64,000 nucleotides of DNA, taken from positions 62,001 to 126,000 of the forward strand of contig JBBHKE010003401.1 in the NCBI GenBank assembly GCA_037447655.1, read 5' to 3'. The notes under the pieces are model-generated. The model was given only the letters and a program-made list of their open reading frames with translations, did no database searches and was not told the DNA's origin. Both the position numbers and the translations under genes were made by a program. The first letter of the stretch is position 1. Every line of letters begins with the position of its first letter. Source of the stretch: Zygnema cylindricum (taxonomy: Eukaryota > Streptophyta > Zygnematophyceae > Zygnematales > Zygnemataceae). Of the stretch, positions 4,426-47,885 are shown one piece after another.

Positions 4426-5127
4426 TGTCGTTGTACTTTATGTACGAATACTGTACGACATGGCCTAAATGTCGACACGTGGTATGTCCGGATTCGCTCC
4501 CGTAATCCTCGAAGATGCCGCGATCCAATGTAATTCTGCCACGTGTCATCCGATGTGGCGATGACCACAAACCGCCGAAATCCTCTTCCGCGATCTCTGC
4601 GTTAATTCCGACCGTCCGATTAAATTCATATTTAATCGTAGCCGTAATAAATACATGTGCCGTAATCTTTTCTTTAAACAAACAAATGCGCGGTATTGGT
4701 TTCTTATCCGTACCGCAATCAGTACTTTTACAATTATGGATCTATGTCTCGCGTAAACAGTTATAGTTAAATGAATTTTCCTACTTGTTAATATTTAATT
4801 AAATATCAAACCCTACATTACGTAACACTCGATAAAGACTTAACGGCTAAGGCTACTGGCTATCGGCTGTCTGCCGGCCGGTAGGTACCAGGATTAAATC
4901 CTGTAGCCGACACTTTCCTTTTAGTAAATAAACCCCTAACTAATATATAATCCCCGTAAACTTCTAGATAGCCTAGGTAGCCATGGCTCTAGCTCCCTCT
5001 CCAATTTCTCAGAAACTGCGACAAGTTTGAGAGTTGGAGAAAGAAGTTAGAGGTAGATTGCCTCGGCTTCTTTTTATATTTCTATTTAGACGTAGAAAAT
5101 ACTTAAAATGGACCATTAATTTCTACA
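4426..5127 (-). mobile_element. Copia LTR, truncated
   Basis: On the minus strand it begins TGTAGAAATTAATGG at 5127, right after a purine-rich AAGGGGAG tract, as expected for a 3' LTR of the Copia body at 5200-6434. It matches the LTRs at 6435-7482 and 12257-13306 but lacks their last 300 bp or so, ending around 4426 against Gypsy integrase. The plus strand carries the LTR's internal tRNA-like box near 4890. Confidence 0.75.
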
Positions 5128-5199
5128 CTCCCCTTATTTTCTAGTCAATCTTTAATTTTAGACCACACTTCTCCCTGCAGAAAATTAGCTTAGGGGAAG

Positions 5200-7482: not shown

Positions 7483-10400
7483 CTCCCCTTATTTTCTAGT
7501 CAATCTTTAATTTCAGACCACACTTCTCCTTGCAGAAAATTAGCTTTGGGGAAGGCACAGGTTTGGTCATCATATCTGCTACCATCTCACTATCTGGTCG
7601 GTACTCTAAACTAATTATTTTATTTTCTACTTTCTCTCTAACAAAGCTGAGTCAATGTCCATGTGTTTAGCTTTAAAATGATGATTAGGATTGGCAGAAA
7701 TAGCGATTGTTAGTTGATTATCACAAAATATTTTCTGCACACCACTCTTAAGATGACCAAGTTCACCAAGTAAAGACTTGACACACATCAATTCTTTTAC
7801 AGCAGAGCAAGAGTCCATATACTCAGCCTCCATGGTGGACTGAGCAATAACCTTTTGTTGTTTGCTACTCCAACAGCAAGCCCCGTCACCCACATATAAT
7901 ACATATCCAGAAGTGCATCTCCTCATCGGAGCATCACCATAACTAGCATCACTCCAAGTAGTGATGTCAGTATTCTCCCCACCCAAATGCAACCATAGAT
8001 CCCTAGTTCCTATCAAGTATCTAAGAACTCTCTTAGCTGCCCCCCAATCATTCTTAGTGGGAGCATTTAGACTTCTACTCAGCACTCCTACACTGCAGCT
8101 AAATCCGGCCCGGTATAATTCAAAAAATAGATTAGACTTCCCACTACTTGCCTGTAACGAATAGTCTGCATGAACTTCTGTTCTTCATGAGATAATTCCT
8201 CGTCTAAGACTATGACTCCTTCTTCCTCACTCCCCTCACTTCCCTTCTTCAATTCCATTGGAGTTGTACAACAATTAGCTTTATCCATTTGAAATTTTTC
8301 AAGCATGTTCCCTATTGCTTCTTTTGAGTCAATCTTATAATTTTTCTTTTTCGGTCTCTCTCTACTTGAATTCCCAAAATATAGTTTGCTTCCCCCATAT
8401 CCTTCATTTCAAATCTCCTCTTAAGATCGGTTTTCAGTTTATTAATTTTTTCCATTGATTAACTTAAAACAAGCAAATCATCAACATAAATTGCAATAAA
8501 TATAAAACCTTCCTCATCTTCGAAAACATAGATTGAGTGATCTGAGCTGATCCGGATATATCCCAGACCAGTAAGAAACTCATGAAGCTTCTTATTCCAC
8601 TGTCGAGGCGCCTGTTTCAAACCATAAAGAGATTTAATCAGCCGACATACCTTACTCTCCTCTCCTTCTTCCACAAACCCTTCGGGTTGTCGCATGAAGA
8701 TCTCCTCTTCCAATTCTCCATGCAAAAAGGTTGTTTTGATGTCCATCTAGTGCACTTCCATGTCTTCCGCTGCTGCCAAGCTGAGAAGTATGCGGACGGC
8801 GGGAAATCTGACCACCGGGGCAAAGGTTTCTTGGTAGTCAATTCCTTCCTTTTGTGTAAATCCCTTTGCCACTAGTCGGGCCTTGTAGCGCTCGATTGTG
8901 ATATCTGGGTTCAGTTTTAGTTTGAAAACCCACTTACAACCGATTGGTTTTCGGTTAGGTGGAGAGTCCACCAGCTCCCAAGTATCGGCTGCCATGATTG
9001 AAGCCATCTCCTCATTGATGGCTGTCTTCCACCGGTTTCTTTCTGGAAAAGTCATCGCCTCTCGATAAGTTTGAGGTTCATCTTGATGAGATAGTTTAGT
9101 TACCTTGTTATTAACCTGTTTTTCTTGCAGTCTTTTGCTACTTCTCCTCCCTCCCTCAAAATCTGAGGCCGGAATAGATGGTTCTCGTGGATTCTTTCAA
9201 ACAAACTCGGCTTCTCCCCTATCCCTTGATTCCGAATCAATTTCCACCACGTCTTCCGCTTCGAGTAGAGTTGTCACTGGAGTTTCCACAGCCGAGTCCT
9301 TTTCGGTCTGATTTGTTCCTGCAAGAATGTCATCGTCCCTAAAACGTGGATAGTTAGGAAGCTCAAAGTTATCAGAATTTTCTGACTCAAATCTGATTTT
9401 TACTGACTTTGTATATTTGAAGGGATCCACAGACTTTCCTTCATCCATAACTACTAGATGCTTTACTAAGATTATATCTTCTCTTTTTAGATCATAAACT
9501 CTATATCCTTTAACATCCTCATCATATCCTAATAAGTATCCCGGTTTTCCTTTAGGATCTAGCTTCCAATTGGACCGATCAGTATCTAGACTGAATACTT
9601 GACTGCCGAAACCTCTAAATGAGATAAGTCTGGTTTCCGGCCTGTCCATCTCTCATAAGGTGTTTGATCTTTTATAGCTGAAGTAAGAACTCTATTTTTG
9701 AGGTAATTAGCACAGTTCATTGCTTCTGCCCAAATCCTTTTTCCTATCTTCTTATCCGACAACATACTTCTAGCACTATCACTTAGTGTTCTATTTAACC
9801 TTTCAGCTACCCCATTCTGTTCAGGATTTTCTGGCACTGTCTTTTGGTGTTGAACCCCATCTTCCCTCAAAAAATCCTCAAACTGGTTAGAAGTATACTC
9901 TCCACCATTGTCACTCCTTACTCTCTTGATTGGAGTTTCATGGAGTTTTTCGCTCCATGCTTTATATTGTCTAAAACAGTCCTCAGCTTGTGACTTGTTT
10001 TTCAAAAAATATACTCGGGAATACCGAGACCAATCATCAGTTATAGTCATCATAAATCTCTTCCCCCCCGGTGAGGGCACTCTAGCCGGTCCCCAAATAT
10101 CTGTGTGTACTAGATCTAGAAGTTTTTCTCCCTTGTAGGTGGCTGTTTTTGGAAAGGGTAATCTGTGTGCTTTACCTTGAGCACACCCACTACAATCACT
10201 TATATCATCACTCTCACTGAACTGAATCCCTTCCACCACTCCCATCTTTTTCATCTCTCTTAACTTATCTAGATTCACATGCCCAAGCCTCTTATGCCAC
10301 ATCATAATATCATGAACACCAGCATAATAAAGTTTCTTCGTTTCATTACTTAAGATCAGCCTAAACATCCCATGGCTACCTTTCTCAGCAATGAAATAGA

Positions 10401-11595
10401 CATCCTCCTCAAAACTAGCAGTAAAAACTCCTTCCCTAGTGCTAGTGAAAAAACCCTTATCATCTAATACTGATGTAGAGATAAGGTTTTTGTTCAGCTC
10501 CGGAATAAAAAATACATCGGAGAATGTTAATATGGATGTCTTTCCTTCAACTAACACTTTCAGATCTACCGATCCTACAAGAGTAGTGGTGACTATCCTC
10601 CCATCCCCGTACTCTATCTCTACGGTGGGAATCTTTCTTATCTTAGTGAACAGGTGTCTATCCTTACACATGTGCATTGAGGCACCTGAATCTATAATCC
10701 AGCCTGCTTCACCTTTCAATCCACCGTAAGCACATTTCTGCCTTCGTGGAATTTCAACCTCAGTTTTCGCCTCCAACTCCTCATCCAAAAGGAGCTCATC
10801 GTCCTCGTCCTCGGATTCCGCCTCAAGTACCTGTGTGACAAGGGCCTTTTTCTTTCCTCTCGGGGTACCACCGGTCTGCCCCTCCTTTAACCGAAGCTCG
10901 GTTAGCTTGGTGCACTCTGCCATATAGTGCCCAGGTTTCTTACAAAAATGACATAAACCTTTGGGAGCCCTTGGTTCGAACTCGCCAACCTGTTTTTCCT
11001 GCTCCCTACCCCCATAGTTTCCGACTGGTTTCCGGGAATCCTTGTTCCTCCAATCGGTCGCTGTTGCCAAGGCTTGGCCACTCTTTCCTCCCCTTCGGAT
11101 CTCAATCGTATTCTCTCGAACGAGAATCATCCCTACCACTGAGTTCCATACCCACCTTGAGTCCGGCAAGTCCTGCACACGGTTGACTATGTTCTCGAAC
11201 TCATCAGGTAACTTCATTAGTAAACAGTTAACTTTTTCTTTTTCACTAAAAACTTTACCCGCACTCTCTAGCTCCATGAAGAGTGTAGCAAGCTCATTGC
11301 AAAAATCCAACATATTTCCCCCTTTGTATACATACTCCTTAACTTTCTGATCAGCCAACTGTTGTTGCTGAATCGTACCACTTCGGATCATCTCTATGAG
11401 AGCCATCCAAAGATCGGATGCCCTCTCTACCTGCAAATGAGGACATGCAAGTCCTTGAGTGAGATGGCGTAGGATGAAGTGCTTTGCCGCCATATTGTTG
11501 AAGTCCCAGGTTTCAGTATCATTCTCCTCGTTCCTCGGAATAGGTGACATGAATGCTAAACCAGTTGCTATTGGTGTGGTCGCCTCCTTTTTATT
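7483..11595 (-). pseudogene. Copia retrotransposon Gag-Pol, nearly complete
   Basis: Order on the minus strand: Gag with a CCHC knuckle (CHFCKKPGHYMAEC, about 10910-10950), protease (WIIDSGASMHMC), GAG-pre-integrase (MMWHKRLGHVN), integrase with VHTDIWGPA, SDNGGEYTS and PENPEQNGVAERLNR giving the D,D-35-E triad, RT (ETFAPVVRFPAVR, MDIKTTFLHGELEEE, FIAIYVDDLLVLS) and RNase H (TWSDASYGDAPMRRCTSGY, STMEAEYM, AKHMDID). The first part, Gag to integrase, is one long open frame from 11595 to 9586. RT and RNase H sit in other frames separated by shifts and stops. The Gag N-terminus is replaced by Gypsy integrase sequence in frame. Confidence 0.9.
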
Positions 11596-12256
11596 GGCAA
11601 TCTGCAAGTTTTCAAAAGCCATGGGCATTTCACGGGCAAAAAGCAAAGCACGACGAGTGAGTTCTTCCAAAAAAATAGTGTCAGACATCAGCGGAAGTGG
11701 GAAGCTTGCGGCCTTCTGAATATTGCGACCGAGCAACGGTTGTCGCCCAAATAAAACATAATACGGGCTGAAATTAGCCAGACTAGCCTGAACCGACATG
11801 CAATATCCCATGGTAATGTAACCGAGGGACTCGTCCCAAACTGAAATGTGTTTTTCTAAGCAATGCTTACGCAAGGCACGCTTAAATGTCTGGACTGCTC
11901 GTTCAGCCAGGCCATCGGCCTAGGGGTGATCCCGACTAGTACGACGATGATCGATGAGAGCCTCATCAAGCATCTCTTGAAATTCTCCCCGAAATTGTGT
12001 ACCTTGATCCGTAAGGACCTCGGCTGGGGCACCGTATCTCATAAGGACATGTTCCTTAAAAGCTGTGGTGGTTAACTTAGCGGTCTTGTGAGGCAGGGCT
12101 ACGACTTCTACCCACTTACTGAAATTTTCAATCATAATCATGATATATTGTTTACCCCTACGCGAGATAGGAAAAGGTCCGGCCAGATCGACCGACCATC
12201 GATAGAATAAACCTCTAATAGGTAGAGGTTGGAGCGTAGTCTGCCGGTTAGAGAAA
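11596..12256 (-). pseudogene. Gypsy integrase fragment fused to Copia Gag
   Basis: The minus-strand sequence encodes the same Gypsy integrase as 3487-4425. It includes LYRWSVDLAGPFPISRRGK with the first Asp, LTDQGTQFRGEFQEML with the second, then YYVLFGRQPLLGRNIQKA and the helix ending MPMAFENLQIA. At residue 93-94 of the 762-codon frame (about 11595) it passes without a stop into Copia Gag. At its upstream end, 12256, it abuts the Copia LTR tail, whose ATG opens a frame into it (MEVSEF, then FHFSNRQ). A frameshift separates the D,D part from the C-terminal part. It may be a template-switch product or an old nested insertion. Confidence 0.8.
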
Positions 12257-13306
12257 TGAAACTCTGAGACCTCCATAAGTCCTCAGAGTGGACAGCTTCC
12301 AAGAAGCCTCTAGGATAATCCTGACCCCTTTGTGTTTAAGCAAAAATAACTGCCACCCTGGCAAACAAAAACTCTGACCACCTTCACCCCTGTGAAGACA
12401 AGACTCCCCTGAGTCGATAGCAAAAAGAATCTCTGAATTTGCTCCCCTGAGCAGTAAGTTATGGAGGGTCAAAGTTGACCTTTTGTACAGAAGCTCTCTG
12501 GGAGAGGGGGTCCTATCTTCTAATTTTTCTAAGTCCTATCTCTCTCACAGACTCTATCTACTGATGTACGGAACCAATCAGAATTGAGTTCCGTACGTAA
12601 AAGTACAGCTGCCGGTGTACTTTATGTACGGACATTGTACGACATGGCCAAAATGTCGACACATGTCAAATCCGGATTCGGTGCCATAATCTCCGGAGAT
12701 TCCACAATCCAACGGAATTTCGCCACGCGTCATCCGATGTGGCGATGGCCACAAACCGCCGAAATCTTCCTCCGCGATCTCGGCGCTAATCCCGACCGTC
12801 CGATTAAATTCGGCTTTAATCGTAGCCGTAATAAATACATGCGCGGTATTTGTTTCATTTACGAAACAAATGCGCGGTACTGATTTTTGTCCGTACCGTA
12901 AGTCGTACATTATATATTACTGGATCTATGTATCCCATAATTCATTTCAGTTAAATGGTTTATCGCACGTATACATATTTAAATAAATATCAAACTATAT
13001 GCTATGTAACACTACAGCTAGATTAAACGGCTAAGGCTACCCGCTATTTCCTGTCTGCCGACCGGTAGGTTCAAGGATCAAGTCCTGCCGCCGGCACATA
13101 CCTTTTAATTAAATAAAATAAACCCTAATATAAAATTCCCGTAAACCTCAGAATAGCCAAGGTAGCCATGGCTCTAGCTTCCTCTCCAATTTCTCAGTGA
13201 CTGCGACAAGTTTGAGAGTTGGAGAGAGAAGTTAGAGATAGACTGCATCGACTTCTATATTTCTTTTCAGACCTAGAAAATACTAATAAAACCATTAGTT
13301 TCTACA
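12257..13306 (-). mobile_element. Copia LTR, full length
   Basis: About 1,050 bp from TGTAGAAACTAATGG (13306, minus strand) to TTTCA (12257), so it has TG...CA ends. It matches 6435-7482. It lies where the 5' LTR of the body at 7483-11595 should be, with Gypsy integrase between. On its right it touches the decapitated Gag of the plus-strand Copia at 13307. Internally it holds the tRNA-like box near 13030-13100 and the CATGGCTCTAGC word shared by all LTR copies here. Confidence 0.8.
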
Positions 13307-16300
13307 TGTGTCCGAAAAGGGGAAAGAGAAGGAGACACCCCTCACTCATATTGCCACAGTATCGGGAGCGGCGACCATGAAGACCGTGGAGAACGATACT
13401 CAAATGTGGGAGGATGTAAACATGGCTTCCAAGAACTTCATTCTAAGGCACCTCACTCAAGATTTGGCTACTCCTCGTCTTCACATATACAAGGCCGAGG
13501 AGTTGTGGGTGAGTTTGGTGGAGATTTATAGAGCTGGAACTATTCAGGAGCTCCAGTTGGCTGAGCAAGAGCTAGTGAGTTACACTTACAAATGAGGAAA
13601 GATGTTAGATTACTGTAATGATCTTTCTTGTTTGTATATGGAAATGGAAAGTGTCGAGTGGACAGGTATAATGAAAATGAAAGTTAACACCCTTATCATG
13701 AAATTACCAGATGAGTTCGAAAACATACTGTACCGAGTACAGGGAATGCGTGATAGTTCATGGAAATGGAACACAGTAGTCAGGATGATACTTGTGCAGG
13801 AAAACACAATGGAGATTAGGAGAGGAGGAAAGAGCATTCAAGCTCTAGCAGTAGGAGGGGACCGATGGGGGAAGGACACGAAGAAACCTTATAGAGGGGA
13901 AAAAGATCATTCTGGGGGACAGAGGCCCCCAAAGGGTCTTTGTCATTATTGCAAAAAGCCGGAATACTTTATCGCAGATTGTGTCAAGCTATCAGAGCTG
14001 AGGCTCCAAGAGAACCGTGGAGGGGGTTCTACCGGAGGGAAGAAAAAGGCACTCGTGGTTACAAAAGTGTCAGGAGAAACCGAGGATGAGTCCTCTCAGG
14101 AGGATGGGGAGCTTCTTCTTGACGAGAGTCTGGAGGAGAAGGAGATTCCTTGGAGGTAGAAGTGTGCCCTTGGAGCAATCGGGGAAGCTCCACAGGAGGG
14201 ATGGATCATCGACTCAGGTGCATCCATGCATATGTGTCGTGATAAAGAACTCTTCACTAAGTTAAGATAGATTCCTACTGTAGAGATACAGTATGGGGAT
14301 GGGAGAGTGGTAACTACAAATCTAGTGGGATCAGTAGATCTGAAAGTCTTAGTGGAGGGTAAGACTTCTATACTTACATTCTCAGATGTACTTTACATTC
14401 CTCAGCTGAGTAAAAATCTTGTCTCTACGTCTGTGTTGGATGACAAAGAGTTTGATACCTTCACTAGAAAGGCAGTCTTTACAGCTAAGTATGTGGATGA
14501 AGTTTACTTCACAGCAGATAAGGGTAGCCAAGGAATGTTTAGGCTTAACCTGAGTAATGAAAAGAAGAATGCTTACTATGTTGGTGTTCCTAAGGTGATG
14601 ATTTGGCATAAGCGGTTAGGGAATGTGCATTTTGATAGGTTAAGGGAAATGAAAAAGCTTAGGGTAGTAGATGGCATTCAGTATGGGGATAATGAAATGA
14701 TGGATGATTGTAGTGGTTGTGCTCAAGGTAAGGCTCACAGACTTCCCTTTTCCAAAGCCGCCACATATAGAGGTGAGAATGTGTTAGATTTAGTCCACAC
14801 AGATATTTGGGGACTTGCAAAAGTACCTTCGGTTGGAGGAAAGAGGTTTATGATGATAATAACTGATGACTGGTCTAGATACTCTAGAGTCTACTTTCTG
14901 AAAACAAAGTCTAAGCATCAACTTACTTCAAAGAATATAAAGCTTAGGGTGAGAAGTTGCATGAAACCCCCATTAAGAGGATAAGGAGTGATAATGGGGG
15001 GGAATATACTTCTAACGAGTTTGAGGAATATCTGAGAGATGAGGGATTCCAGCACTAGAAAACTATACCATATAACCCGGCACAAAATCGGGTAGCTGAG
15101 AGGTTGAATCGAACACTAGGAGATAGTGTACGCAGTATGTTGGCCGACAAGAAAATAGGAAAGAGATTTTGGGCAGAAGCAATGAATTGTGCCAACTACA
15201 TTAAGAATAGAGTCCTCAACTCAGCTGTAAAGGGAGTCACACCTTATGAGAGATGGGTTGGAAGGAAACCAGATATCTCACACCTTAAAGTATTTTGTAG
15301 CCAAGTTTACAGTCTTGACACAGATAGGAAAAACTGGAAACTAGATGCTAAGGGAAAACCTAGATACTTTGTGGGATATGATGAGGATGTTAAGGGATAT
15401 AGAGTCTATGACTTAGCAAAGAAAGATATCATTCTGGTCAAACACTTAGTTGTCATGGATGAAGGGAAGTCATTTGACCCTTTCAAATATACAAAGAATA
15501 TAAGGATCAGATTTGAGTCCGAAAGTGAGGAGAACTCGGTCGTTCCCGAAAGGGACATGGGTGAAACCGTGATTACAAATTCAGTGGAGATCCAAGATAC
15601 AGGAGACTCACCGGAAACCTCACATACTCATATAGACTTCGAGGAGATAGAAGAAGCAGGACAAGAACCGGTTTCCATGGACAGGGGAGCCGATAAGACT
15701 GTGAGAAGAAATCCAAGACTTCCATCCATTCTTGCTTCGCAGTTTGAGGGAGGAAGGAGGAGCAACAAAAATATTACAGGAAAAACAAGCCGCTCATAAG
15801 GTAACAAAGCTATCTCACCCTGATGAGCCTCAGTCTTACTTAGAGGCAGTGAATAGTCCTAAGAAAGAAAGATGGATTAGAGCTATAAATGATGAGATGG
15901 CTTCAATCATGGAAGCGAATACTTGGGAACTAGCAGATTGTCCTCCAGACAGAAAACCTATTGGGTGTAAAGGGGTATTTAAACTAAAACTGAACCCTGA
16001 TAATACCATTGAAAGATATAAGGCTCGATTGGTAGCGAAGGGGTTCACTCAAAAGGAGGGGATTGACTATGAGGAGACCTTTGCTCCGGTTGTTCGGTTC
16101 CCATCAGTAAGGATTCTCCTCAGCCAGGCAGCAGCGGCAGACATGGAAATCCACCAGATAGACATTAAGACTGCGTTTCTAAATGGTGAGTTAGAGGAAG
16201 TAATTTTCATGAGACAACCCGAGGGGTTACTGGAAGAAAGAGAAGAGAGCAAAGTCTGCAGGCTCATAAAGTCCTTATATGGACTGAAGCAGGCTCCCCG

Positions 16301-17429
16301 ACAGTGGAATAAGAAACTAGATGAGTTTCTTACCAGTCTGGGATATATCCGTATCAGTTCTGACCATTCTATCTATATGTTTGAAGATGAGAATGGTGTC
16401 ATTTTTATTGCAATTTATGTGGATGATCTGCTTGTGTTGAGTAAATCCTTGGAAAAGATCAATAAGTTTAAAACAGATCTTAGAAGCATATTTGATATGA
16501 AAGATTTAAGGGAGGCAAAATATATTTTGGGGATTCAAATGGAGAGAGATAGGGGGAAGAAGATTATCAGACTTACTCAGAAAGAAGCAATAGGTTATAT
16601 GCTTGAGAAATTCCAGATGGAAAATGCTAACAGTTGTACCACTCCCATAGACTTGAAAAAAGTAAGTGATGGGAGTGTAGAAGGAGGAATGATGATCTTA
16701 GATGATCAAATGAGTACACAAGAGAGAGAGTTTATGAAGACTATCCTTTATAGACACGTTGTAGGAAGTTTAATCTATTTTATGAATTGTACCAGGCCGA
16801 ACATAGCGGCAGCAGTTGGAGTACTCAGTAGGAGTCTTAATGATCCTAGGAAGAGGGATTGGGAGGCAGCCAAGAGAGTCATGAGATATTTGGTAGGAAC
16901 CAGGAGTTATGGTTACATTTGGGAGGGGAGCACACTGACATCACTACTTGGAGTGATGCCAGTTATGGGGACGCACCTATGAGACGATGCACTTCTGGGT
17001 ATGTGTTGTATGTTGGGGAAGGTGCATGCTGTAGGAGCAATAAGCGACAAAAGGTGGTTGCTCAGTCCACTATGGAGGCTGAATACATGGCCTCTTGTTC
17101 TGCTGTGAAAGAGTTGATGTGGGTCAAGTCTTTGCTGCAAGAACTGGGGTATATGAAGGAGGGAGTGCATGAAGTGTTTTGTGATAATCAAGCTGCCATA
17201 GCAATTGCAGCCAATCGAAAACATCATTTTAAGGCTAAACATATGGACATAAGATTAAGTTTTGTAAGAGAAAAAGTTGAGAATAAAATAGTGAATCTTG
17301 TATATAGATCTGATGAGGAAATGGTAGCGGACATGATGAACAAACCTGTGCCCTCACCGAAGTTAAAATACTGTAGGAAAAATTGTGGATTAAAAGAAAA
17401 ATTAAAAAAAGACTAGAAAATAACGGGAG
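13307..17429 (+). pseudogene. Copia retrotransposon Gag-Pol, plus strand
   Basis: Order: Gag (13308-14159, one internal stop near 13593; CCHC region CHYCKKPEYFIADC has Tyr-Phe in place of the usual Gly-His, so the knuckle is impaired), protease (WIIDSGASMHMC, about 14200-14235), GAG-pre-integrase (MIWHKRLGNVH), integrase (LVHTDIWGL, RSDNGGEYTSN), RT and RNase H (15732-17416: ETFAPVVRFPSVR, IDIKTAFLNGELEE, FIAIYVDDLLVLS, TWSDASYGDAPMRRCTSGY, STMEAEYMAS, AKHMDIRLS). Stops and shifts occur near 14270, 14985 and 16980. The first codons of Gag and the 5' LTR are missing. It ends in a purine tract (AACGGGAG) directly before the LTR at 17430. Confidence 0.9.
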
Positions 17430-18427
17430 TGTTGAAATAAGTAGTTTTTGTATTTTCTAGGTCTAAACTAAATTAGCGGAAACATTTATAGAAAATGATG
17501 GCAGCCTGCCTCCATCTCTTCTCTCTTTCCCCCATACTTGTTGTAGTCAATGAAGGAGAGAGAGAGCGATGGAGCAATGGTTGCATCAGCTCCATAGGAA
17601 GGACTAAAGAGTGACTTAAGTCACTCTCAACAAAAGGTTGAGTCCGGCAGGACTCGAACCCCCGACCGGTAGAGAGCGGCGTAGCCGTTAACTCTAACCA
17701 GTCTGTCGTAGAAGTCCTTTAGATGATACAGGGTTTCATTCATATTTAAACTATTCTATTATATTGAAATGATTTAACTGTAATATGGACAAAACGAACA
17801 TAGAAGTTGTTAAGGTTTAGTGCGAACGTCATTTCGCACGAAACAAATGAAACGGACATTTGTTTGAAACGGTCGACATTTAATTTCGAATTTAATATGA
17901 CGGCGCACGTCATCGCCGAGATCGCGGAATGGTCACTTTGGATTTTATGGACGTGGCATGACGTGGCGCCGCGTGGAAGGATGACATTCAGTCGCGAGAA
18001 TTCGGGAGAATATACCAACGAGTGGAAAAATGACACACGTCCACTGAGTAGCCTTGTCGTACACCGACCGTACAGAAAGGACATCGGCCGTAGTACCTTT
18101 CTATACTTTACAGTAATATGATTGGTTCGTACTTTAGTAGATAGGGGTTGTGAGAGAGATTTAGGACTTAGGAAATTCTGACACCTCTCTCTCTAAGAGA
18201 GCTTTGTATAAATTGGCATTTTTGCCGGCTCATAACTTATCGGCTGGTTGGCCGTTTTCAGTGATTCGTTTTGCTACGGACTCAGGGGAGTCCATGCTAC
18301 ACAGGGGTGCTGTCAAATTTTCAGTTTGCCTTCTTGGACAGCAGTGGTTGTGGCTTCAAGTGGGTTAGTTAAATACTATCTAGAGGCTTCCTGTATTTTG
18401 TGGTCCAATGGAGGACACAGAATTGCA
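17430..18427 (+). mobile_element. 3' LTR of the plus-strand Copia
   Basis: Begins TGTTGAAATAAGTAG right after the purine tract AACGGGAG and ends near AATTGCA at 18427. It has the same layout as the minus-strand LTRs (head with TATTTTCTAGGTC, tRNA-like box, CGAGATCGCGG block, tail with GGAG..CACAGA) but is clearly diverged. It runs directly into another LTR in the opposite orientation. Confidence 0.8.
17645..17715 (-). other. tRNA-like segment (A and B boxes) inside the LTR
   Basis: On the minus strand a perfect internal B box, GGTTCGAGTCC, lies about 45 bases after an A-box-like TGGTTAGAGTT. The spacing suits a tRNA-derived pol III promoter. The 5' and 3' acceptor sequences do not pair and the T stem is imperfect, so it is not a working tRNA. 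Decayed counterparts occur at the same place in each related LTR (near 4890, 7245, 13075, 18740 and 63075). Confidence 0.4.
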
Positions 18428-19417: not shown

Positions 19418-21049
19418 GGATGATATGAACACTACACCACGAATCGTAATTAGAGTAAAGAAAAAATTAGAGTAGAAAAAGAAAAATAAATAGAGTTATT
19501 ACCTCTATTTTGTGTGATATAACATTTTCATAAAGGATTTTTACTCTAATTTATCAATAACGGTATGTCTCCATGTGCATAAGTACGGGTTTTTTTTTGT
19601 CGTTTTCCTGTAAAACTTATCGATGTACTACCTAAGTTGCAACCGTACTACGGAATTGCAAATTTGTAGAGTACAATTTGCGTCATCGTTGAATTTATGA
19701 TGTATGAAAAAAAATTGTCTTGTATTCTTTGACCCACCTCCACGACAAAAAACGTCATCTTTAACCTTACGTTTAAAACACATGCGCGATGTGTTTTCAA
19801 ACTAGGTATTTCGATAAACAAATAGGAACGTATAGTCGCACGTGCCATAATTTTTGAAAATTTTCATACAATTTCAAAAGACAAAAAAAAGTACAAAATT
19901 CGCTTTGTTTTGTCTGTTTGCGTTCTGATTCGACGAAAAAAAAAACCCAATTTGTTTAGTTTTGTCTGTTTTTGTCCTGTACGGATTACTTTTTTGCAGG
20001 GGTCTTCAAATTCCTATGCCATTTCACGCCGGCCGGATAGGAGACACAAAGGCAAAACGCCTCGTCTTCAACCCTCAAACGACATAAGCTAGAAGGCAAT
20101 ACGTCTACAATGTCACTGTAAGATATGCGACGTCACAAGCAGTTTCAAAAAAAAACGTGTGACCACAGATTGTAGACGTTGACAACCGTCACAGGTACTG
20201 TCGACATATACAATCGTCACTAGCGTAAGTTACAATTTTGTCCTTAGTGTATGTCCCCATGTACTTGTAACTTAGCGAACTTACTTTGTATTTTAGCGCG
20301 GATCCGTCAGACCCGGTTTTGAAGTGTCCTTATGTCTATAAGGACGAAATCGTAAATACGCTTGTGACAATTGTATACGTTGTCAATACTTATGACAGTT
20401 GTCAACGTCTACAATCTGTGGTCGCACGTTACCTTTTGGAACCGCTTGTGACGTCGCATGTCTTACTATGACATTGTAGACGTACCGTCTTCTAGCCTAT
20501 GCCGTTTCACGATTGAAAACGAGGCGCTTTTCCTTGGCGTCTCCTATCCGGTCGACGTGAAATGGCATCGATATTTGAAGACCCTTGCAAAAAAGAAATC
20601 GGTACTGCACGAAAACTGACAAAACCAAACAAATTGTGTAATTTTCTTAGTCGTATTCGAACGCAAACGGACAAAACATAGCAAATTTTGTACTTTATTT
20701 GTCCTTGGAAATCCTAATAAAATTTTCGAAACTTAGGCACGTGCAAATATATGTTCCTATTTGTTTATCGAATATATTGTCGAACGTGCCCAAGAAACAT
20801 GAGAGAAGGGCCCACTACCCGAAGTAGTCGGCATCGGAGTCCTATAAATAACCCCCAAAATGCGAATGCTTCCCATAATAATGATTATGCCCACTGCTGC
20901 CCGCATCGCGCCCATCGACATGCATGCAAAATAGGGTGGATGATCGGACAGGTAATATGAATGAGTGCATGGGAGGGCAAAAAGATATCTCCTCCCCCTT
21001 CCTTTCCCCACCTAGCCGGGGAAAGGGATTGGGTTATTAGTCTTTGAGA

Positions 21050-22855
21050 TGGTCTCTCTTCTTCTCCTAATCCACCATCACCACCTCACGCCCCTTATCT
21101 TTCGCCATCCCTATCTACCGCTGCAGCCATCCGTCGGTCCCCGGACCCACTTGTTGTACCCTACAAATACGACGTCCCCGCCTATTCACCTTCTTACGGA
21201 CGTTCTCCTTTTTCCAGCTCAAGAACTAAACCTCCCCAGGCATCTAGGAGGCGAACCAGGAGACATACGCCTTTTCCTACAGGGCCCCAGCAGTCTACGT
21301 CTCCATCTCCGCCACCGTCCATTCCACAAAGGACCTCCTTTGAACAAACCTCGTCTTCACATCCTATCGGTGAAGAGTTCTCAGAGAGGAACGAGCCTCT
21401 CATAGGTATAGAGGAGCAGACAAGCGGACATCTGATTCTAGCGAAACACCAGCTAGAAAAACAGACCCTTATGCTATATATCCAGTAGCGGGAACTTCCT
21501 CAGCGAGGGGGAAGTCCACCTCTCATCGGGCAGCTCCTTGTACTGGAGGAGGAGGCTGGTCCGATCAAGAATACGCAGATCCAAGGGTCATTTCACCCCC
21601 TCAATTTGTTAGTCCCACTCGGCCTTCCTCACCCCATTTCACCAACCTTGCGGAGGAGGAGAAAATGGGTGACATAAGGATTTTTATAGGGGATAATTTG
21701 GGGATCGTGTTCTTGGATTTGGAATTGTTGTGGAAATCTGTCACACAATCCGAGATAAATAAGTATAGGGGGGGGAGAAATCCTAGATGACTTCGAAACT
21801 ACCCTCTTCTCAATGATGGTCAATTATCTCGTTGGGGGCGCTATAGCAGATTACAAACAGCGACAACCTCTCTGATGGCTCCCACCATCAAGATTTCAGA
21901 CCCGATACTCGATGCGGCAGTCTTGCAAGCGGAAGCCGACTTTGCTGCAATTGCAACCGCTCTTGTCACACCCACCTTCAAAGATGACATGAAACAGCAG
22001 GCACAGGGTCAACCCTATGTGAACCAAATGACAATAAACTGCAGGCACAAGGTTAGGCCTATGTCAACCACCTACATACCATACAGGCCGCCGAATCCGC
22101 CACCCGAATGGTCGCAAATCCTTTACCCTATACCACTTTTTTGAACACCTGGAGACTCCTTTACACAGAAAAGAATGAATCGGCAATCAAGGAATTTACG
22201 AAATTCCGTTGTACGAAGAGTCAAACCCCCCAGGCAATTTTCAACAGAGTATCAAGCCCTTGTCAAAAGACCAAACTATCAACCATCAATCTCCCGGCTA
22301 TAGAAACCAAATACTTTATCGCAGTTTGGAATTCGTTTGGGCCCACGGGGCAGACTGCCCTCGACTATTCGATCGCAGGACAGGCCATCCAGGACAACAA
22401 TCCATCCACTAAAGAAATCTCGCTAGTCGCAATGAAGCTCTACGACCACTTCTTTTATAGGGAGGCCCAAGAGAAGGCGGTAACAGGCAAAACCAGGGGA
22501 AACTTTGCAGGGTTTGCCGGAGAAATGCCTCCTAAAAATGAGGAATCAGCAAAAATTCTAGCTTTGCGGAAGATTAAGGGGAAACAAGTGGTGGATAGCA
22601 GATTTGAACCAGCCATGGGGGCCGATGACCGAGTCTTTTTGTACAACTATCTAAACTGTCAACAAACTGGTCATGGATGGAAGCGCTGCCGCTGGAAGTT
22701 CAAACCAGAATTGGCCCTCGACCAGAAAGAATGGGAAAAGGAAATAGCAGAAAGGACGAAGAAACACCAAGATAGGAGACCAAGGTGGGGAGTGCTTGGC
22801 CTGGAAATCTTTGTTTGTTGCACCAGAAGAACAAAAAGCGGTATATTTTTGTAAT
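21050..22855 (+). pseudogene. Gag-like region of the innermost retroelement
   Basis: The first part, to about 21860, is Pro/Ser/Arg-rich in changing frames. From 21875 two overlapping frames (21875-22144, then 22108-22854) give a helical capsid-like region and then a zinc-knuckle-like motif, LNCQQTGHGWKRC. That matches CX4HX4C, with the first Cys of CCHC replaced by Tyr. A Lys/Glu-rich tail follows. No Pol domain follows on this strand. Gag is inferred from the knuckle and position; the family is not clear. Confidence 0.5.
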
Positions 22856-22879
22856 GTGTGTTGTGGTCCTACTTTCTCT

Positions 22880-23640
22880 TAGGATCTACTGCACAAAGTT
22901 TCAGGATTCTAGGATCTGTTGTTTCAAAAATTTATGGATGACGGGGAGCGGAATCAAATTGGTCCAATAAGCCCTAAGTCTGGTGCCCCGGATCTCATTT
23001 GCGCCGCGTTGAAAACTATTGGACTTCCTAAAATCTAGGTCACCTGATTCCAAGTGTCGGCAACCTGTTTTTGTGAGTCGTCCCCCTGGTGGACATTCTC
23101 CAAAACATACCCAGAGGTGTATCCTGAAGCTGGTGTATCCATGAGATGACTAAAATCATTTGAAAAAATGTTGCACTCTTGCTCTCCCTACGCCCCCTTC
23201 CTTGTCCTGTTAAGGAGTATCCATGACAAGGCCATCCAGCCACTACCACATCCACCCTTCCCAGACTGGATATATGAGGTGTCATTATGTTTTCCACATT
23301 CTGGGGAAGATTCCGGTGGGCTTTGGATAAAGTGTGCACATCGAGCTGCTGAGGGTATAGATGGTGGAGCTGTTGCAAGCGATGCTCGCTGACTGCTCGT
23401 GCTTCGGGCGATATCTCCACGGCTATATAGGATTCTACCTCATATCCTGCCTTCAAAACGACTTCTGGGTCAATACTGGTTCCAAAAAATAGAGATAAAA
23501 TCTGGAGGCTTGAATCGGGAACCGTCAATGACACCACTTGTCCGTTGAATTTTTCGTGTTCGGATATGGTCCCTGAAACATCAGAACGAAGGTTTGAAAA
23601 TTTATCGTTTAGTAATAAAGCTAAGAATGTCTGATCCACT
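22880..23640 (-). pseudogene. Cytosine-C5 DNA methyltransferase domain in a retroelement
   Basis: The minus strand encodes a C5-methyltransferase catalytic domain. LSLFFGTSIDPEVVLKAGY is the SAM-binding motif I region (with FFG where many enzymes have F-x-G-x-G). YIAVEISPEA is motif II (acidic residue after a beta strand). VDVVVAGWPCHGYS is motif IV with the Pro-Cys nucleophile, followed by a GQGRG loop. In a shifted frame come ENV (motif VI, near 23090) and RLRAYWTNL (near 22930). One or more frameshifts after motif IV and a stop near 23040 inactivate it. It follows the protease in the same orientation, so it was probably part of one polyprotein. Retrotransposons with captured methyltransferases have been described in charophytes and dinoflagellates. 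Which DNMT class it belongs to is open. Confidence 0.75.
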
Positions 23641-23879
23641 CCCCGCCGGAGTTTGGCAACCTGTAATAATATGTCATTGTATTCCTCTTCCCACCGCTTG
23701 GAAATAAGGAATTGCTAGATTTCCTCAGCTATATCTTTAGAGTTGGCAAAAAGTTCAGTCGGAGAGGATGTAGCATACACCGGGAAGTAGCCACACACTA
23801 GGACATTGGTCTTCCTCTGGTTCTATAAGTCTAAAAGAACCACCACTTTAGTCCCTTTCGGATTTCCGGGGTCTCGAAC

Positions 23880-24480
23880 AGTACATTGTTATTTCCACAC
23901 GCTTAACCCAATATTCAGCCGAGTCCAGATGGCCATTCCCAACAGAATTTCAAATTAAGCTCCTTCAACCACTAACAATGGGAGCTCAATTTTCACACGT
24001 TGTCCTGCGTCATCGGAGAATTCAATTTTCATGGCCTTGATAATCCCATGAACTGGCTCACTGCTGCTGCTTACCGTGCTCAGACAGATGTTGCTTGGGC
24101 AGATTTCTGGTTGGAGTTCCTTGGGCATTTTTTGTAAAGCGGAGGTGGTGAAGAGGTTGGGGAGCGCTCTAGTGTCGACCACGACGTCGTGATATCCTCC
24201 GTATTCATTGAGTTTGAAATTTCCCGTCCGGTTGAGGATCAGCGCCAAAGATAACGTTTTATAATCCCTATCCATCATAGAGGACTTTGGGTCTGCTAAC
24301 CAAAAAGCTGACCTGGGATAATCTGCACGGTCTCTTTTCTCCTCTCCTAAGTGAATCTTCTCCCCGAGGGGCTGTATGAGAGTTTTTTTCGGTAGGTTGT
24401 GGGAAGAGGCCAGTGTTTTCACGTGATCAGATGCCTTACTAACATCACTGTTGGTTTGGAGGAAGGAGGTTGAGTTTTTG
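23880..24480 (-). pseudogene. Retroviral-type aspartic protease upstream of the methyltransferase
   Basis: The minus-strand frame 24422-23955 contains YHDVVVDTRALPNLFTTSAL, the position of the catalytic Asp-Thr-Gly-Ala. Gly is replaced by Arg, so this copy is inactive. The frame runs to LPLLVVEG, and after a stop the second conserved motif follows, FEILLGMAIWTRL (the ILG-x-D/W-x-L signature). The stretch from here to 23640 continues with short frames (VLVCGYFPVYATSSPTELF, RWEEEYNDILLQVAKL) into the methyltransferase, so I infer protease, linker and methyltransferase in that order. Confidence 0.6.
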
Positions 24481-24803
24481 ACGACGAAATGGGGGAACCT
24501 GGCTCCTCCGGTTTTTCCTTCTCCCCCCCCTCTCCTTCCTCACTTTCATTGTTGGATTTCGGCTCAGGGGCGTTTCTGGTGTGTTATCTTCCGAGCGTTC
24601 CGCTTAATATAGTTCGAACCAGTCTTGGTTTTTCTGTTTTTCCTCCTCTTCTTCCTGTTTTCCCATCTCCCTTTGTTTAGTTGTCTTGTAATTCTCAAAT
24701 CTAGGAGGCAATTTCTTCACAGCAAGGGGAGGCGGATTTATCGGTTTGATTTCGAGACCAATTTTGTCGTTCAGAATAACTGCCCTAGGAGAGAAGAGAC
24801 AAA

Positions 24804-25265
24804 GGGAAGCGGTCCTTGGTCACCCTTCGAGGTCTGGCGCTATACCAGTCTTTCGCAATTGTTTTTGCCAAAGAGAAAAAGCCTCGGCTGAAATCTTCAG
24901 AGGTTCCGCCCAAAAATCAAAAATTCCATCGACAAGTGGTGTCATTAACAATTTTGGATTCCGAGATTTGGATATTATCACTATTCTTTGGAATTAGCTT
25001 GGACCTAAAAGTTGTCTTGAAAGCAGGATATAAAGTAAAGTCCTATGTGGCCGTGGAAATCTCACCTGATGCTCGAGCACTCGGTGAACACTGACTACAA
25101 CAGCTTCACCAATTGTATCCTCAGCAACTCCCCATATCCGTCATCTGCAGATCTCACCAAAGCCATCCCCAGAATGAGAATATCTTGGAACCCCATTTTG
25201 CTATGCTGGAGCGAGTAGATCTAGTATAGCGCCCGACCTCGAAAGGTGACCAAGGACCGCTTCCC
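24804..25265. repeat. 41-bp inverted repeat around the methyltransferase fragment
   Basis: The left arm begins GGGAAGCGGTCCTTGGTCAC and ends GGCGCTATA at 24844. The right arm, 25225-25265, is its reverse complement with two mismatches. The arms themselves encode a peptide seen twice (REAVLGH-x-SRSGAI), so they derive from coding sequence of the element. The pattern fits a local inversion or foldback. Confidence 0.8.
24886..25216 (+). pseudogene. Second, inverted methyltransferase fragment
   Basis: Plus-strand translation gives HRQVVSLTILDSEIWILSLF, then VVLKAGYKVKSYVAVEISPD, then after a stop LQQLHQLYPQQLPISVI, ending at LERVDLV. This is the N-terminal half of the same methyltransferase as 22880-23640, through motifs I and II, stopping just before the Pro-Cys motif. 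It is flanked by 41-bp inverted arms (24804-24844 and 25225-25265) with two mismatches. Confidence 0.75.
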
Positions 25266-26930
25266 TATGGGCCAACCCCTTTCTACGTGATTTAGGCGAT
25301 AATGTCGGTCTCTCCACCTTCTCCGAGGTCTTAGCTCTGGCAGCCTCAGACAAAGTTGGGAAGTTCTCAAGAGAAAAGACAGGTGGAGGTGGAGGAGAGA
25401 ATTACCTCACTGGCTGTTCTGGAGGAGTGTCTCAGATGTAACAGCCGGAGGCATCATTCCCTTAAAAAACCACTCTGTGTTTGAAGGTGAGGCAAAGGGG
25501 ACTGATTCTTCGAGCACCAGTGACTCTTCCTCCGGTGAAAACGTAACGTGACTACCGTGCTCCTTAGATCCGATTTCCGGAGCCCCTTTTACTGAGCTTC
25601 TCCCCCTCCTATCGAGTGATGGCTAACGGACACAACTATCAGAACTATCGGTAACGAGAACCCTAACTCCTCCCAAGAATTGAGGGTCCCAAAATATGAA
25701 GCTCCTATCCCCACTAATCCGAAAGAGACAGGTTGATGTTTTCAGTACTGTCGTGATCCGCTGGAAGTCGGCTAAATGCGTCCTCAAAACCCACAGTTAT
25801 TGTACAAAATATTATACCATTCTATTCCGGCGGGACCGCCGCCGAAGCAAAAGGACTAGCAAGGAGGATCAAATAAACTTCCACGCATAAATAATAAAAA
25901 TAAAAAGAATTGGTTGTTTTAGATTTTAACAATATCACCTTTCCCAAAAAAATGGAATAAAAGAGAATTAATAATGATAGCAAAGCAAGCTCAACAAACA
26001 CCTAAAAGAAACGCTGACAACAAGAGGAGACGAAATCTCTCTCGAAGACACCGAAACAGATAAAGCCTCCTTAACTCCTCATGTTCCGCAAACCGGAACC
26101 GGCAAGACCCTTCTCGGTATCCAACAAACACCAGTCCCAAATCGCCCAAACAGGAAAGATAGTGCCAACTACCCAACCAGACTACGACTTCCACAAGGAC
26201 GGATGCAAACCAAGATGACAAAAAGGTCAAAATCACATACAAAACAAAAGTTTTCCAAAAGAAAGTTTGCTGAAATTTCTAAGGTTTTTCTCAAGTGACA
26301 GTATTGAAAACAATAACTTGTCTTCTTCGGCCCTAAGCGCCTTATAAAACAGAATTTGTCCGATTTCAGATCCAAAAGGTCAACGCAATGCAAGGAGCCA
26401 ATGAGCGGAGAGCAATTGCTATCGAAATGACATAGGAAAAATAAATCCGTTTACACTCAAGGCAAAAAGTTTAACTTCAGACTCCGGCTGAATGTGGAAT
26501 TGAGAGTCGAAATTGGAACCACTTATTTACCAAAAAGGTCTGGAACTGGTGTTGGGATCCCATACTTTGACCTAGTGTAATTAATGGACCAGAAGCCAGT
26601 TGAACCTAAACTGAATCCCTACTGACATCTAACAACAAAATCTCAATGACAATCCGAAAAGTTACGTGGCAATCAATAATGTACCCCCCACTAGGGTAAG
26701 CGGGAGCTAGTCCCATGTAACAGAATTGGAATCTGTGAGACAAAATAACTTGGTCGTCCGGCCTCCGTTAGGCGCGAAATAAAGTGCGTTGAGCTTAGTT
26801 TAGAAAATAGAAGAATATCATCGCGCTAGGTACAGTCCTTCCTCCGTAATCAGATGACAGTACAGGGGAGAAATGGCCCGGAAATCCTTGGTAAAATAAA
26901 GGGGTGCCTGTAAAGCACACGAGCTTGACA
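25266..26930. other. Remainder of the innermost retroelement, no clear gene
   Basis: The minus strand from 25600 to 25266 keeps a fairly open, Ser/Pro/Glu-rich frame ending LGHLSRSGAI that resembles polyprotein linker. From 25900 to 26930 I see only short frames without domains. The last 400 bases could be LTR, because the insertion border is at 26930, but I could not match it to the left end. Confidence 0.35.
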
Positions 26931-27609
26931 ATACCTAGTTTTAAAACACATCGCGCATGTGTTTTAAACGTAAGGTTGAAGAAGACGCTTTTTGTTGTGG
27001 AAGTGGGTCAAAAAACACAAGACAACAAATTTTCATACATCTTAAATTCGAGGATGATGCAAATTGTACTCTACAAATTTGCGATTCCTTCGTATGGTTG
27101 CAAATTAGGTAGTACGCCGCTAAGTTTTACAGGAAAACGACTGAAAAAAACCCTTACTTATGCGCATGGGGACATACCCTTAGAAAGATAGGGACACTTG
27201 AAAACCGGGTCAGGCGGATCCGCGCTAAAATACAAAGTAAGTTCGCTAAGTCACAAGTACATGGAGACATACCCTAACTCTGATTTGGGCGTAAATTTGG
27301 GCGTTGAATATATACACCATAAATTGAGTACAAGTACAGAATGTGACAAAGCGTACAGTTTCACGTCATTATGACGTTTGCATTACACGATTTGTTAGAA
27401 CACAGCTACATGAAAACGGCATGTACTAAATGATATATGTGATTTTTTTACTTTTTGCGCCGTCAGACACTGATTGTACGCCACACTATTTAAAACAACA
27501 ATGTGTTAGAGTTATTAACGCTCATTCATATACTCTATTTATAGAGATAGAGTCAAAATTTGGGGCGACGGAATTAGTGTACATAACTCTAATTACGATT
27601 CGCGTTGTA

Positions 27610-28443
27610 CAATGTCGACTCCCAAATTTTGGCACCCTAATTCGTTTCGGATTCGACGTGGCCGGCTGGGTACGAGCCGGGTACAGATTCTGGAAACCGA
27701 ATGCGACCTCAGACTTGTGGTGGCGGTCAGTCCTTGTCGGTATGACGATATTCGAGTAGCGCGATATACAGTCTTCGATTTCGATTGCTACACCGCGAAT
27801 CGCTATTAGCGTTAACAAATATTTAGTGCTAAAGGACAACTAGTGTAATTAGCGCTATTTTGGAATTTGGGGATTTTGATGGAAATTAGTCATTCTAATT
27901 TGTTTGTTAGGATTTTATGTTAACTTCCGTATTATGTCAGTTTCAGTTTACAGTGGACGTTTTTTTGCGTATTTTTCAAAAGTCACGTACAATACGTAGA
28001 AACTGGAAAAAATGGAAAAAATCCACGTATTGAACAACTAGGGTCAAGAGCATGCCTTTAGCGCAGTTCGACGTACGGAAAGCTCTCTCGCACAACCAAA
28101 ACTACGTACGCGAATATCAAATCCCCATGTGACTCGTTAATGACTTTCTCCTGCCACACATGAAACTACAGTAGTGTGTACCTGTAGCTAAATTCAGCAA
28201 GGTACCGATTCAGCTCTTATAAAGACAGGGACTATCCTTTCCAGGGGATATTCCTAGATGTAGGTGCTTCCAGAAGAATTGAAGTTGCCCACGGCTTTCT
28301 ATTCGTCACCCTTCTATTACTGTTCCTCTCAAAGCGTCTCCTCGTAAACTTTCAGTCCAAGACACGACGAGCAAATTTGTCTCTGTCGGAAATCGACCTT
28401 CAATTCATCGGAAGTCTCCCTCTTACTTTCAAAGCCAGCAGCC
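27610..28443. other. Intergenic region upstream of the CX9C gene
   Basis: A TA-flanked inverted-repeat element end (TACACCGCGAATCGCTATTAG) starts at 27789, but its right end was not found, so it is probably truncated. The segment near 27960-28050 shares AAAAGTCACG..GGAAAAAATGG..TTGAACAACTA with the repeat near 33475-33545. The last 230 bases hold the probable core promoter. Confidence 0.45.
28217..28224 (+). promoter_or_regulatory. Candidate TATA box
   Basis: TTATAAAG lies 220 bases upstream of the ATG at 28444, the only good TATA-like word in the region between the inverted-repeat remnant and the start codon. No transcript data support it. Confidence 0.35.
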
Positions 28444-37437: not shown

Positions 37438-38879
37438 AGACGGTAAAAATCATTTCTTTTCTTTGTTTTTTGAAGCTCGGGCATAGGGCTCATTTTTCTC
37501 TTTAGATGTTGACATCTTGTCGTGGTTTTAGGGTTTTTCTTTATCCGTCCGAAGGTCGATAACGTAATGTAGGTGGCCGTACTTTGGAGGGTAGAGGTAT
37601 GGCAACTTTAGGAAACATATTGCAGAGACATTTTACATGTGGTTTTGTGTTTTCTACGTTTTCACGGCCCTGAAATTGTAGTCGTCGGTTTGTCGGTTTC
37701 TTGTTAAGCCTTTTGTTCAGAACATGATTCTTTGTATTCTGGGGAAATTTTTAGCTCCGCAAATTTTTAGAACAGAAAATTTTCAGAAGTTTTGGAGCTC
37801 TTATGTCATTTTTTATCCTTGCGATGTAAAGTTTCTGCATTTAAGTTTTAATTGTTGCTTAACAGCACTTTTGTACTATTTCCTGGCATAGAAATACTTA
37901 GGTTCTTTTACTATGCCTAAAAATGAGGTTTTCTTTTGTTGAGCAAATCTTTTCGGCAAAGATTTTTTTTTGACGTCTTTAGTTTGTTTTGGAAAGACAT
38001 CCCATTGGATGGATATGTGAATTTGGACATTCTGAGATGGTTCTTAGATGTTTATGTAACAAGGCAATCCTCTGTATATTAGAGATTCTTATTTCTTATA
38101 TAGGTACAAATACTTTAGTTTTCGTATTTGTTCTTTGACACTAAACAATGTTGTTCAATCAACAAAAAAGGACAAGATTTTGTCGACTAAGGGTGCTTGT
38201 TCAATAAAAGCCTTTCGTTTCGGGAAAACGTTAACAGACCTACAAGCTCGTTTCCCCCAAAAAAAGATTCAACCAATGGAATTCACTTCTACATTGCCAT
38301 AGCTACAAATGAGAGTGAAACGTATTGTTCTCTATGTGTGGGTTTCTTTCGCAGTGTTTTTCATGTCAGTTTGTTTCTCCTGGGTTCATTTTTTCAGTCG
38401 TGTATCGGCTTTTCGCTGCTTTTATTTCCATGTAAAAAGATGGTTTAGTGTTGTGTTATTTTGACGAGCTCTGATGATTCATGTTGATGCTGGAACCATA
38501 GGTCAATAAAAGCTGCCTCGTGGTTTTCAGACCCCTCTCCTTGCGCTGATATGCACATTTTCTCCACAATTCGTACAAAGACTTTTTGATAAGGTTGCCG
38601 CTCCCATTCAATCGGACCTTCTTGAGGAGCTTCACTCTGATTCATCGCTTGCCCGTTTTCTCTCCTACAGAAGCCTTAGTGTTGGAGCTTGGCTCTTGGC
38701 TACACATATTCTGTGCACTCTTATGTTTCAAGCCTCGTCAATTGTACACCGCCTGCAGGGGCCTTGCCTCCCTCATCCACCTCTAGTTGGCTCCCTCGTT
38801 TGCTTGAAGACTTGCACTATTTCTTGACTTTTTGTCCAGCAGTTTAACGCCTCACAAATGGCTCCATACACTTATTTGA
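37438..38879. other. 3' UTR of the Yip1 gene and intergenic DNA
   Basis: AATAAA at 38203-38208 is a possible polyadenylation signal, though it is 766 bases beyond the stop. I see no domain in the short frames around 38200-38790. No repeat was recognised. Confidence 0.4.
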
Positions 38880-39186
38880 GCACTTGCACCAAGAAGATGA
38901 CACGTACCAGGAGGAAGACCCGCACAAGGAAGCAGACTCGCACCAGGAGGAGGACTCGCACAAGGAGGAATCGTACCAAGAGAAGGACTCGCAAAGAGAG
39001 GAGGACTCGCATTAGGAGGAGTCCTCGCTCTAAGAGGAGGACTAGAACCAAGAGGAGGACTCTCACCAGAAAGCAGACTCGCACCAGGAGGAGGACTCGC
39101 ACCAGGAGGACTCCTTGAACCAAGAGGAGGACTACAACCAAAAACAGGACTCGCACCAGGAGGAGGAGTTGCACTAAGAGGAGGAC
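38880..39186. repeat. 18-bp minisatellite (Arg/Thr-coding in one frame)
   Basis: Tandem units of about 18 bp built from GACTCGCACCAGGAGGAG, with 12- and 15-bp variants, run for some 300 bp up to the border of the inverted-repeat element at 39192. One frame reads Thr-Arg-Thr-Arg-Arg-Arg. Another reads Asp-Ser-His-Gln-Glu-Glu but with stops. Flanking sequence gives no gene context, so I treat it as a minisatellite. Confidence 0.75.
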
Positions 39187-39191
39187 TGAGC

Positions 39192-39695
39192 TACACCGCG
39201 AATCGTAATTAGAGTAAAGGAATAATTAGAGTAAAAAAACGAAAAAAAAAAATAGAGTTATTAACTCTATTTTGGGTAATCAACCCTTATCAAAAAAAAA
39301 AATGTACTCTAATTTATCAATAACTCTAATTTGGGCGCTGAATATATCTACTGTAAATTAGGTACACGTACAAAATCTGACAAAACGTACAGTTTCACGT
39401 CATTATGACGTTTGCACAACGCGGTTTGTTAAAACGCGGTTACATGATAACGGCCTGTATTAAATCATTATTTGTACTTTTTTACTTAATAAAGTACAAT
39501 TTTGCACGGTTAGACACCGACCGTACGCCACACTATTTAAAACGGCACTGTATTAGAGTGATTAACGCTCATTCAAAAAGTGCCTTAAATAATGCAAAGA
39601 ATAATTTAGAATAATGTACTCTATTTATGGTGATAGGGTCAAAATTTGGGGTGACGGAATTAGCGTACATAACTCTAATTACGATTCGCGGTGTA
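39192..39695 (+). mobile_element. Intact 504-bp TA-flanked inverted-repeat element
   Basis: Ends TACACCGCGAATCGTAATTAG and its mirror at 39695, with a TA at each border. The interior has TAACTCTAATTTGGGCG, CAGTTTCACGTCATTATGACG and GTACGCCACACTATTTAAAA. It is the reference copy for the split element at 19433-27609, and 47374-47877 is the same element reversed and also 504 bp. No transposase frame. Confidence 0.85.
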
Positions 39696-47370: not shown

Positions 47371-47373
47371 CTG

Positions 47374-47877: not shown

Positions 47878-47885
47878 CTGTACAA

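Follow-up and report, generated by a model that had tools for sequence, protein, structure and literature searches.

Retrotransposons that carry cytosine methyltransferases (MTases) have been described from two host lineages, and the initial annotation of this locus was right that such elements are known: KnitGypsy-Dnmt3, a Dnmt3-bearing gypsy element of Klebsormidium, and SymbioDIRS-Dnmt3 of Symbiodinium have both been published (PMC5890265). The catalytic domain of SymbioDIRS establishes de novo CG methylation in yeast (de Mendoza et al. 2018, PMC5890265), and the KnitGypsy domain displayed no activity in the yeast assay, a result called inconclusive by the authors (PMC5890265). The main text of that paper, where KnitGypsy-Dnmt3 is described, nowhere uses the word protease (PMC5890265). 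According to a 2025 paper, DNMT3 is found within streptophyte and dinoflagellate retrotransposons, there termed LTR Copia and DIRS (PMC12344493).

The window analysed here comprises 64,000 nucleotides of the Zygnema cylindricum genome. We consider it very probable that the locus under study is a dead, rearranged copy of a large family of Ty3/gypsy type, whose Pol starts with a DNMT3-like MTase located behind a leaky UAG.

Anatomy of the window copy

The rearranged retroelement as a whole occupies 20778..26930, with no strand assigned and with ends placed by eye, both of which display TGTC reading inward. On the minus strand, a DNMT3-like C5-methyltransferase domain (22904..23714) carries motifs I (ILSLFFG), II (VEIS) and IV (GWPCHGYS), followed by motif VI (ENV) in another frame and motif VIII (RLRAYWTNL) in a third; two frameshifts lie near its end, and motifs IX and X are missing. 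Translation of 22880-24540 recovered each motif of the initial annotation in its place on the minus strand, and the C5-methyltransferase proposed there from motifs I, II, IV, VI and a late RLRAYWTNL is real, as attested by the PF00145 and DNMT3C matches, with VI and VIII shifted in frame. On its own, the MTase ORF (224 aa) scores 20.7 bits against Pfam PF00145, under the cut-off of 22; with its frame-shifted C-terminal pieces joined through X, it reaches 28.7 bits.

A retropepsin-like domain (23892..24272, minus strand) precedes the MTase in frame, with DTRALPNLF at about 24176 and ILLGMAIW at about 23945. Hence, the protease proposed upstream of the MTase is present by its motifs, but its active site reads DTR, mutated from DTG, and the window copy of this domain matched nothing in either Pfam or PDB. 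Protease and linker together hold four in-frame stops, three of which represent damage, the fourth being the conserved TAG discussed below. A gag-protease linker lies at 24399..24819 (minus strand), homologous to positions 410-3 of a sampled genomic stretch, L005. AlphaFold models of the MTase and the protease had mean pLDDT values (30.5 and 38.9, respectively) too low to be of use. The CpG observed/expected ratio of the MTase part (0.64; whole window 0.83) is uninformative, since a copia stretch gave 0.37.

The 5' leader of the element (25318..26930, minus strand) is homologous to L005 7964-6440. The gag-like region (21093..22851) lies on the plus strand, and its longest ORF (22057-22851, 265 aa) converges on the MTase. 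L005 has its leader, gag and linker in a single orientation, interspersed with copia LTR pieces, which shows that the gag of the window is inverted with respect to the other three parts of the element, namely leader, protease and MTase. When the 7.7-kb stretch was Markov-shuffled 300 times, open frames of at least 224 codons appeared 3 times, and one of 265 codons, the length of the gag ORF, 0 times. The first Cys of a zinc-knuckle-like motif in gag is Tyr in the window, Ser in the relative L023 and Cys in L005, and none of the Pfam gag families gave a match. Protein searches returned no match under the limit for gag (4,179 candidates), the MTase (781) or the protease-MTase read-through (2,923), IMG/VR scans with the window MTase and gag queries found no relatives, and the protein searches with these three queries brought up no K. 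nitens sequence.

A second, diverged MTase fragment (24849..25223, plus strand) extends from motif I to just before motif IV, inverted with respect to the first, with which it shares 55% identity over 130 residues. It is flanked by 49-bp inverted repeats (92%) at 24800-24848 and 25221-25269. Six-frame Pfam analysis of 20772-26929 revealed neither RT nor integrase; PF00145 scored 18.0 bits there, beside a single match at the level of chance (FSIP1, E 0.15). No LTR pair was seen within the element. The window copy is dead: it carries extra stops, frameshifts and the DTG to DTR change, its MTase is cut off after motif VIII, and its gag is inverted.

The retroelement is nested in a TIR transposon (19562..27274, no strand assigned) with termini GGTATGTCTCCATG and CATGGAGACATACC, flanked by duplicated TAAC at 19558-19561 and 27275-27278; the terminal motif occurs 4 times in the window, where 0.11 occurrences would be expected. 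No transposase was recognised among the ORF pieces inspected in this transposon. Its terminal repeats enclose gag, protease and MTase, as they would if the MTase were a passenger of a DNA transposon with captured gene pieces. In another sampled stretch, L009, however, the TIR sequence is uninterrupted and its two flanks are contiguous where the window holds the retroelement, while L005 carries leader and gag without TIR, its homology stopping at window position 26930. The empty site and L005 rule out the capture, to which we attach a very small probability, in favour of an independent retroelement inserted into the transposon. The duplicated target in L009 is imperfect (ATAT/ATAC, by eye).

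The TIR transposon, with terminal GGTATGTCYCCATG, occurs also in L008, L009 and L015, and has a second copy of its terminus enclosed by a 437-nt inverted repeat (19810-20246 / 20339-20772). The inverted repeats A, X and B might be read as DIRS-like, but this reading was discarded because the repeats recur in L008, L009 and L015. The transposon sits in turn inside a MITE (19432-27611) of a family with ends near GTACACCGCGAATCGTAATTAGAG, represented also at 39191-39696 (uninterrupted), 47163-51050 and 54835-55120, several of them nested or in tandem. An 18-bp tandem repeat of 17 copies (38878-39187) adjoins a MITE. Elsewhere, the window holds several copia elements at 4426-18427; one of their ORFs (9586-11919, 777 aa) encodes the domains copia gag, zinc knuckle, GAG-pre-integrase and integrase. 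Overlapping minus-strand ORFs at 41419-44731 resemble a non-LTR element by eye, ORF 43541-44731 being without a Pfam match, and an open frame of 537 aa on the minus strand (52779-54392) has no confident Pfam family.

The family in the genome

The genome (352,776,454 bases, 352.8 Mb, in 2,689 contigs), in which the window corresponds to C2547:62001-126000, was searched with the MTase as query; of 1,304 first-look candidates, 150 were scored, with 151 matches reported. The copy number is 150 or more, the weakest among the matches listed having an E value of 3.2e-66. Over 201 aa, two copies share 96% identity with L023, which suggests that the family spread recently. Among 18 stretches of 10 kb sampled regardless of content (13 + 5), one, L005, contains a relative.

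The possibility that a host DNMT3 pseudogene came to adjoin retrotransposon debris by chance would fit the degenerate state of the window MTase and its closeness to DNMT3 in PDB. It is, however, at odds with the scoring of 150 matches in a single genome, the majority of which run for ~200 residues without intron breaks, with a protease-MTase junction common to 150 scored places, and with the RT and integrase that share a frame with the MTase in L023. Copy number and linkage thus rule out the host pseudogene, whose probability we regard as negligible, and the proposal that the MTase is element-borne is supported: 150 or more genome matches, the junction in 150/150, and RT and integrase in L023.

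L023, the copy on contig C1374, lies in an open frame of 1,520 aa, and it is the single relative read end to end and the one that looks intact. Its order is gag, protease, TAG, MTase, RT, RNase H, integrase and PHD finger. The gag ORF (335-2482, 716 aa) contains one perfect CCHC; the L005 translation displays two by eye, in different frames. The protease ORF (3176-4012) carries DTGALPNL, with intact DTGA, and ILLGM, and scores below both cut-offs in Pfam (PF13650, 22.3 bits, cut-off 24.3; PF13975, 18.7, cut-off 28.2). About 700 bases between gag and protease lack a single open frame, so that L023 may be damaged there or use a shift. A TAG at 4013-4015 separates the protease from the Pol frame (4016-8575), which is open after the TAG for 1,520 aa and scores 48.9 bits for PF00145, 100.6 for RVT_1 (with YIDD), 123.1 for RT_RNaseH, 55.4 for Integrase_H2C2 and 46.1 for rve. 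The PHD, seen in this one copy, has a complete C4HC3 pattern and 17.5 bits, under the cut-off of 24. RT and integrase are hence found in one frame with the MTase, one TAG after the protease, as the initial annotation had suggested looking for; RT beside the MTase was seen in L023 alone. No direct repeat of the LTR-pair kind was seen within L023, whose 5' leader lies outside the stretch examined.

The Ty3/gypsy Pol order (protease, RT, RNase H, integrase, with integrase last) is found in L023, and on this domain order we assign it as a Ty3/gypsy-type Pol starting with a DNMT3-like domain. The DIRS class was rejected on the rve integrase of L023 and on there being no recombinase family among its Pfam matches. 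The MTase motifs of L023 run by eye in the order I, II, IV (PC), VI (ENV), VIII, IX and X. DRM enzymes have a rearranged motif order; as that of L023 runs from I to X without rearrangement, the DRM class was rejected as well.

For the X-joined window MTase, the best of 41 PDB rows is DNMT3C (E 3.4e-7), followed by DNMT3B/3A, M.HhaI (0.006) and DNMT1 (1.6). Phage C5-methyltransferases match it with E values down to 9e-9, among the 15 listed of 302 records, and in local blastp (four of the 302 phage records compared) three phage MTases score 62-69 bits and a fourth 55.5, next to 55.8 for a 165-aa piece of mouse DNMT3C. Together with a PHROG 116 match (E 3.6e-14) and a motif IV-V loop that looks phage-like by eye, the three phage MTases that outscore the DNMT3C piece would agree with descent from a bacterium, phage or virus instead of a host Dnmt3, as published for the orphan MTase of SymbioLINE. 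The L023 MTase, in contrast, matches DNMT3A at 5.7e-14, the next class, M.HhaI, following at 1e-4, DRM2 at 0.004 and DNMT2 at 0.23 to 1.2, and with phmmer the second MTase copy of the window scores higher against DNMT3C (15.2 bits) than against its best phage match (13.9), in comparisons that included no plant or algal Dnmt3. We consider the foreign origin doubtful, albeit worth keeping in mind, and use DNMT3-like as a provisional label.

The two MTase copies of the window, compared over 125 codons, have a dN/dS of 0.22 (bootstrap 0.10-0.40, with 913 usable replicates out of 1,000 and 0 at 1 or above). Against L023, the first copy gives dN 0.32 and dS 1.54 over 201 codons at 58% amino acid identity (dN/dS 0.21), and the second dN 0.33 and dS 1.64 over 124 codons. 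The window protease is 69% identical to that of L023 over 155 codons, with dN 0.20, dS saturated and differences at codon positions 1/2/3 of 39/19/83. For gag, 245 codons compared with L023 give 66% identity, dN 0.22 and dS 1.33, and 230 codons compared with L005 differ at the three positions by 41/27/132, with dS too high to compute. These values, to be read with the caveat that dS is near saturation, indicate that MTase, protease and gag have been under purifying selection.

The stop codon between protease and methyltransferase

In the window, an in-frame TAG (23715..23717, minus strand) stands between protease and MTase and represents a probable readthrough site. Its context, ATC TAG CAA TTC, is identical in the window and L023. 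The sequence CARYYA after UAG has been described as essential for readthrough in TMV, and the same source refers to candidate cases among rice gypsy elements (PMC2754532). UAG CAA UUC departs from the leaky-stop motif of TMV at a single base, the last, which is C and not A.

We queried the genome with 201 aa that run from the end of the protease into the MTase, the stop being represented by X to avoid favouring any residue. The query gave 937 candidates, of which 150 were scored, the window's own copy not being among them, and all 150 matches reach across the junction. At least one TAG is present in 147/150, and one TAG with no other stop in 49/150; TGA occurs in 49/150, TAA in 35/150, and stop-free matches amount to 0/150. 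The TAG occupies the same position in the window and L023, and presumably does so in the remaining matches. With stops inside the match read through, frames of at least 1,000 aa surround 9 of the 150 matches and frames of at least 1,500 aa, long enough for a complete Pol, surround five (C1374, C544, C1156, C1527 and C549), the domain content having been read for C1374.

The stop thus looks conserved across copies, and from this conservation we infer that the MTase-Pol is probably made by readthrough. The TAG might instead not be leaky, Pol arising from separate initiation, a spliced RNA or an altered genetic code; readthrough is argued from conservation, which leaves room for these routes, but the TAG context shared by the window and L023 is a single base away from a known leaky motif. 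We regard a non-leaky stop as unlikely and proceed with readthrough as the preferred reading.

Proposed mechanism and comparison with known elements

We hypothesize that gag and protease would form the ordinary translation product, and that at the leaky UAG directly 3' of the protease a minority of ribosomes would add MTase, RT, RNase H, integrase and PHD. Made as such an extension of Pol, the MTase-Pol would therefore be packaged with the element RNA. Before integration, or as it takes place, the MTase could methylate the double-stranded cDNA of its own element, self-methylation being its putative function, and the PHD that ends the integrase side of Pol could anchor the integration complex to a histone state. 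More tentatively, the family may consist of reader-writer elements, with a readthrough Pol that has a de novo MTase at its start and a histone-reading PHD at its end, which choose their chromatin, arrive methylated and are able to shape the host methylome; we hold this broader scenario to be possible, with the balance of probability against it.

The occurrence of 150 or more copies, some nearly identical, together with a leaky-looking stop and a chromatin-reader domain, makes it testable whether the element gains by methylating its own cDNA and whether the host methylome changes. A natural comparison is offered by the copies that retain an intact MTase and those that lack one within the same genome.

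Among the open-licence papers listed, no title or abstract opening described an element of this layout, be it the readthrough or the PHD. The stop resembles the UAG-CARYYA signal of TMV in that UAG is followed by CAA UU, but differs in its last base, C, and in separating a protease from an MTase-RT (PMC2754532). SymbioDIRS-Dnmt3 of Symbiodinium likewise has a Dnmt3-type MTase in a retrotransposon Pol, but employs a tyrosine recombinase, whereas L023 has an rve integrase with an H2C2 zinc domain (PMC5890265).

The nearest published relative, and an element of the same kind, is KnitGypsy-Dnmt3 of Klebsormidium nitens, likewise of Gypsy type and from a streptophyte, with a Dnmt3-related, non-rearranged MTase inside the Pol ORF and purifying selection on that MTase (PMC5890265). 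The Zygnema family differs in its 150 or more copies, in the succession of protease, TAG and MTase, and in the PHD that ends Pol in L023; the repeats of KnitGypsy-Dnmt3 are described as DIRS-like (PMC5890265). With Ty3/gypsy elements in general the family shares the order of gag, protease, RT, RNase H and integrase, but in L023 an MTase is inserted between protease and RT. Chromoviruses are Ty3/gypsy elements with a chromodomain at the integrase end, the position at which L023 has a PHD.
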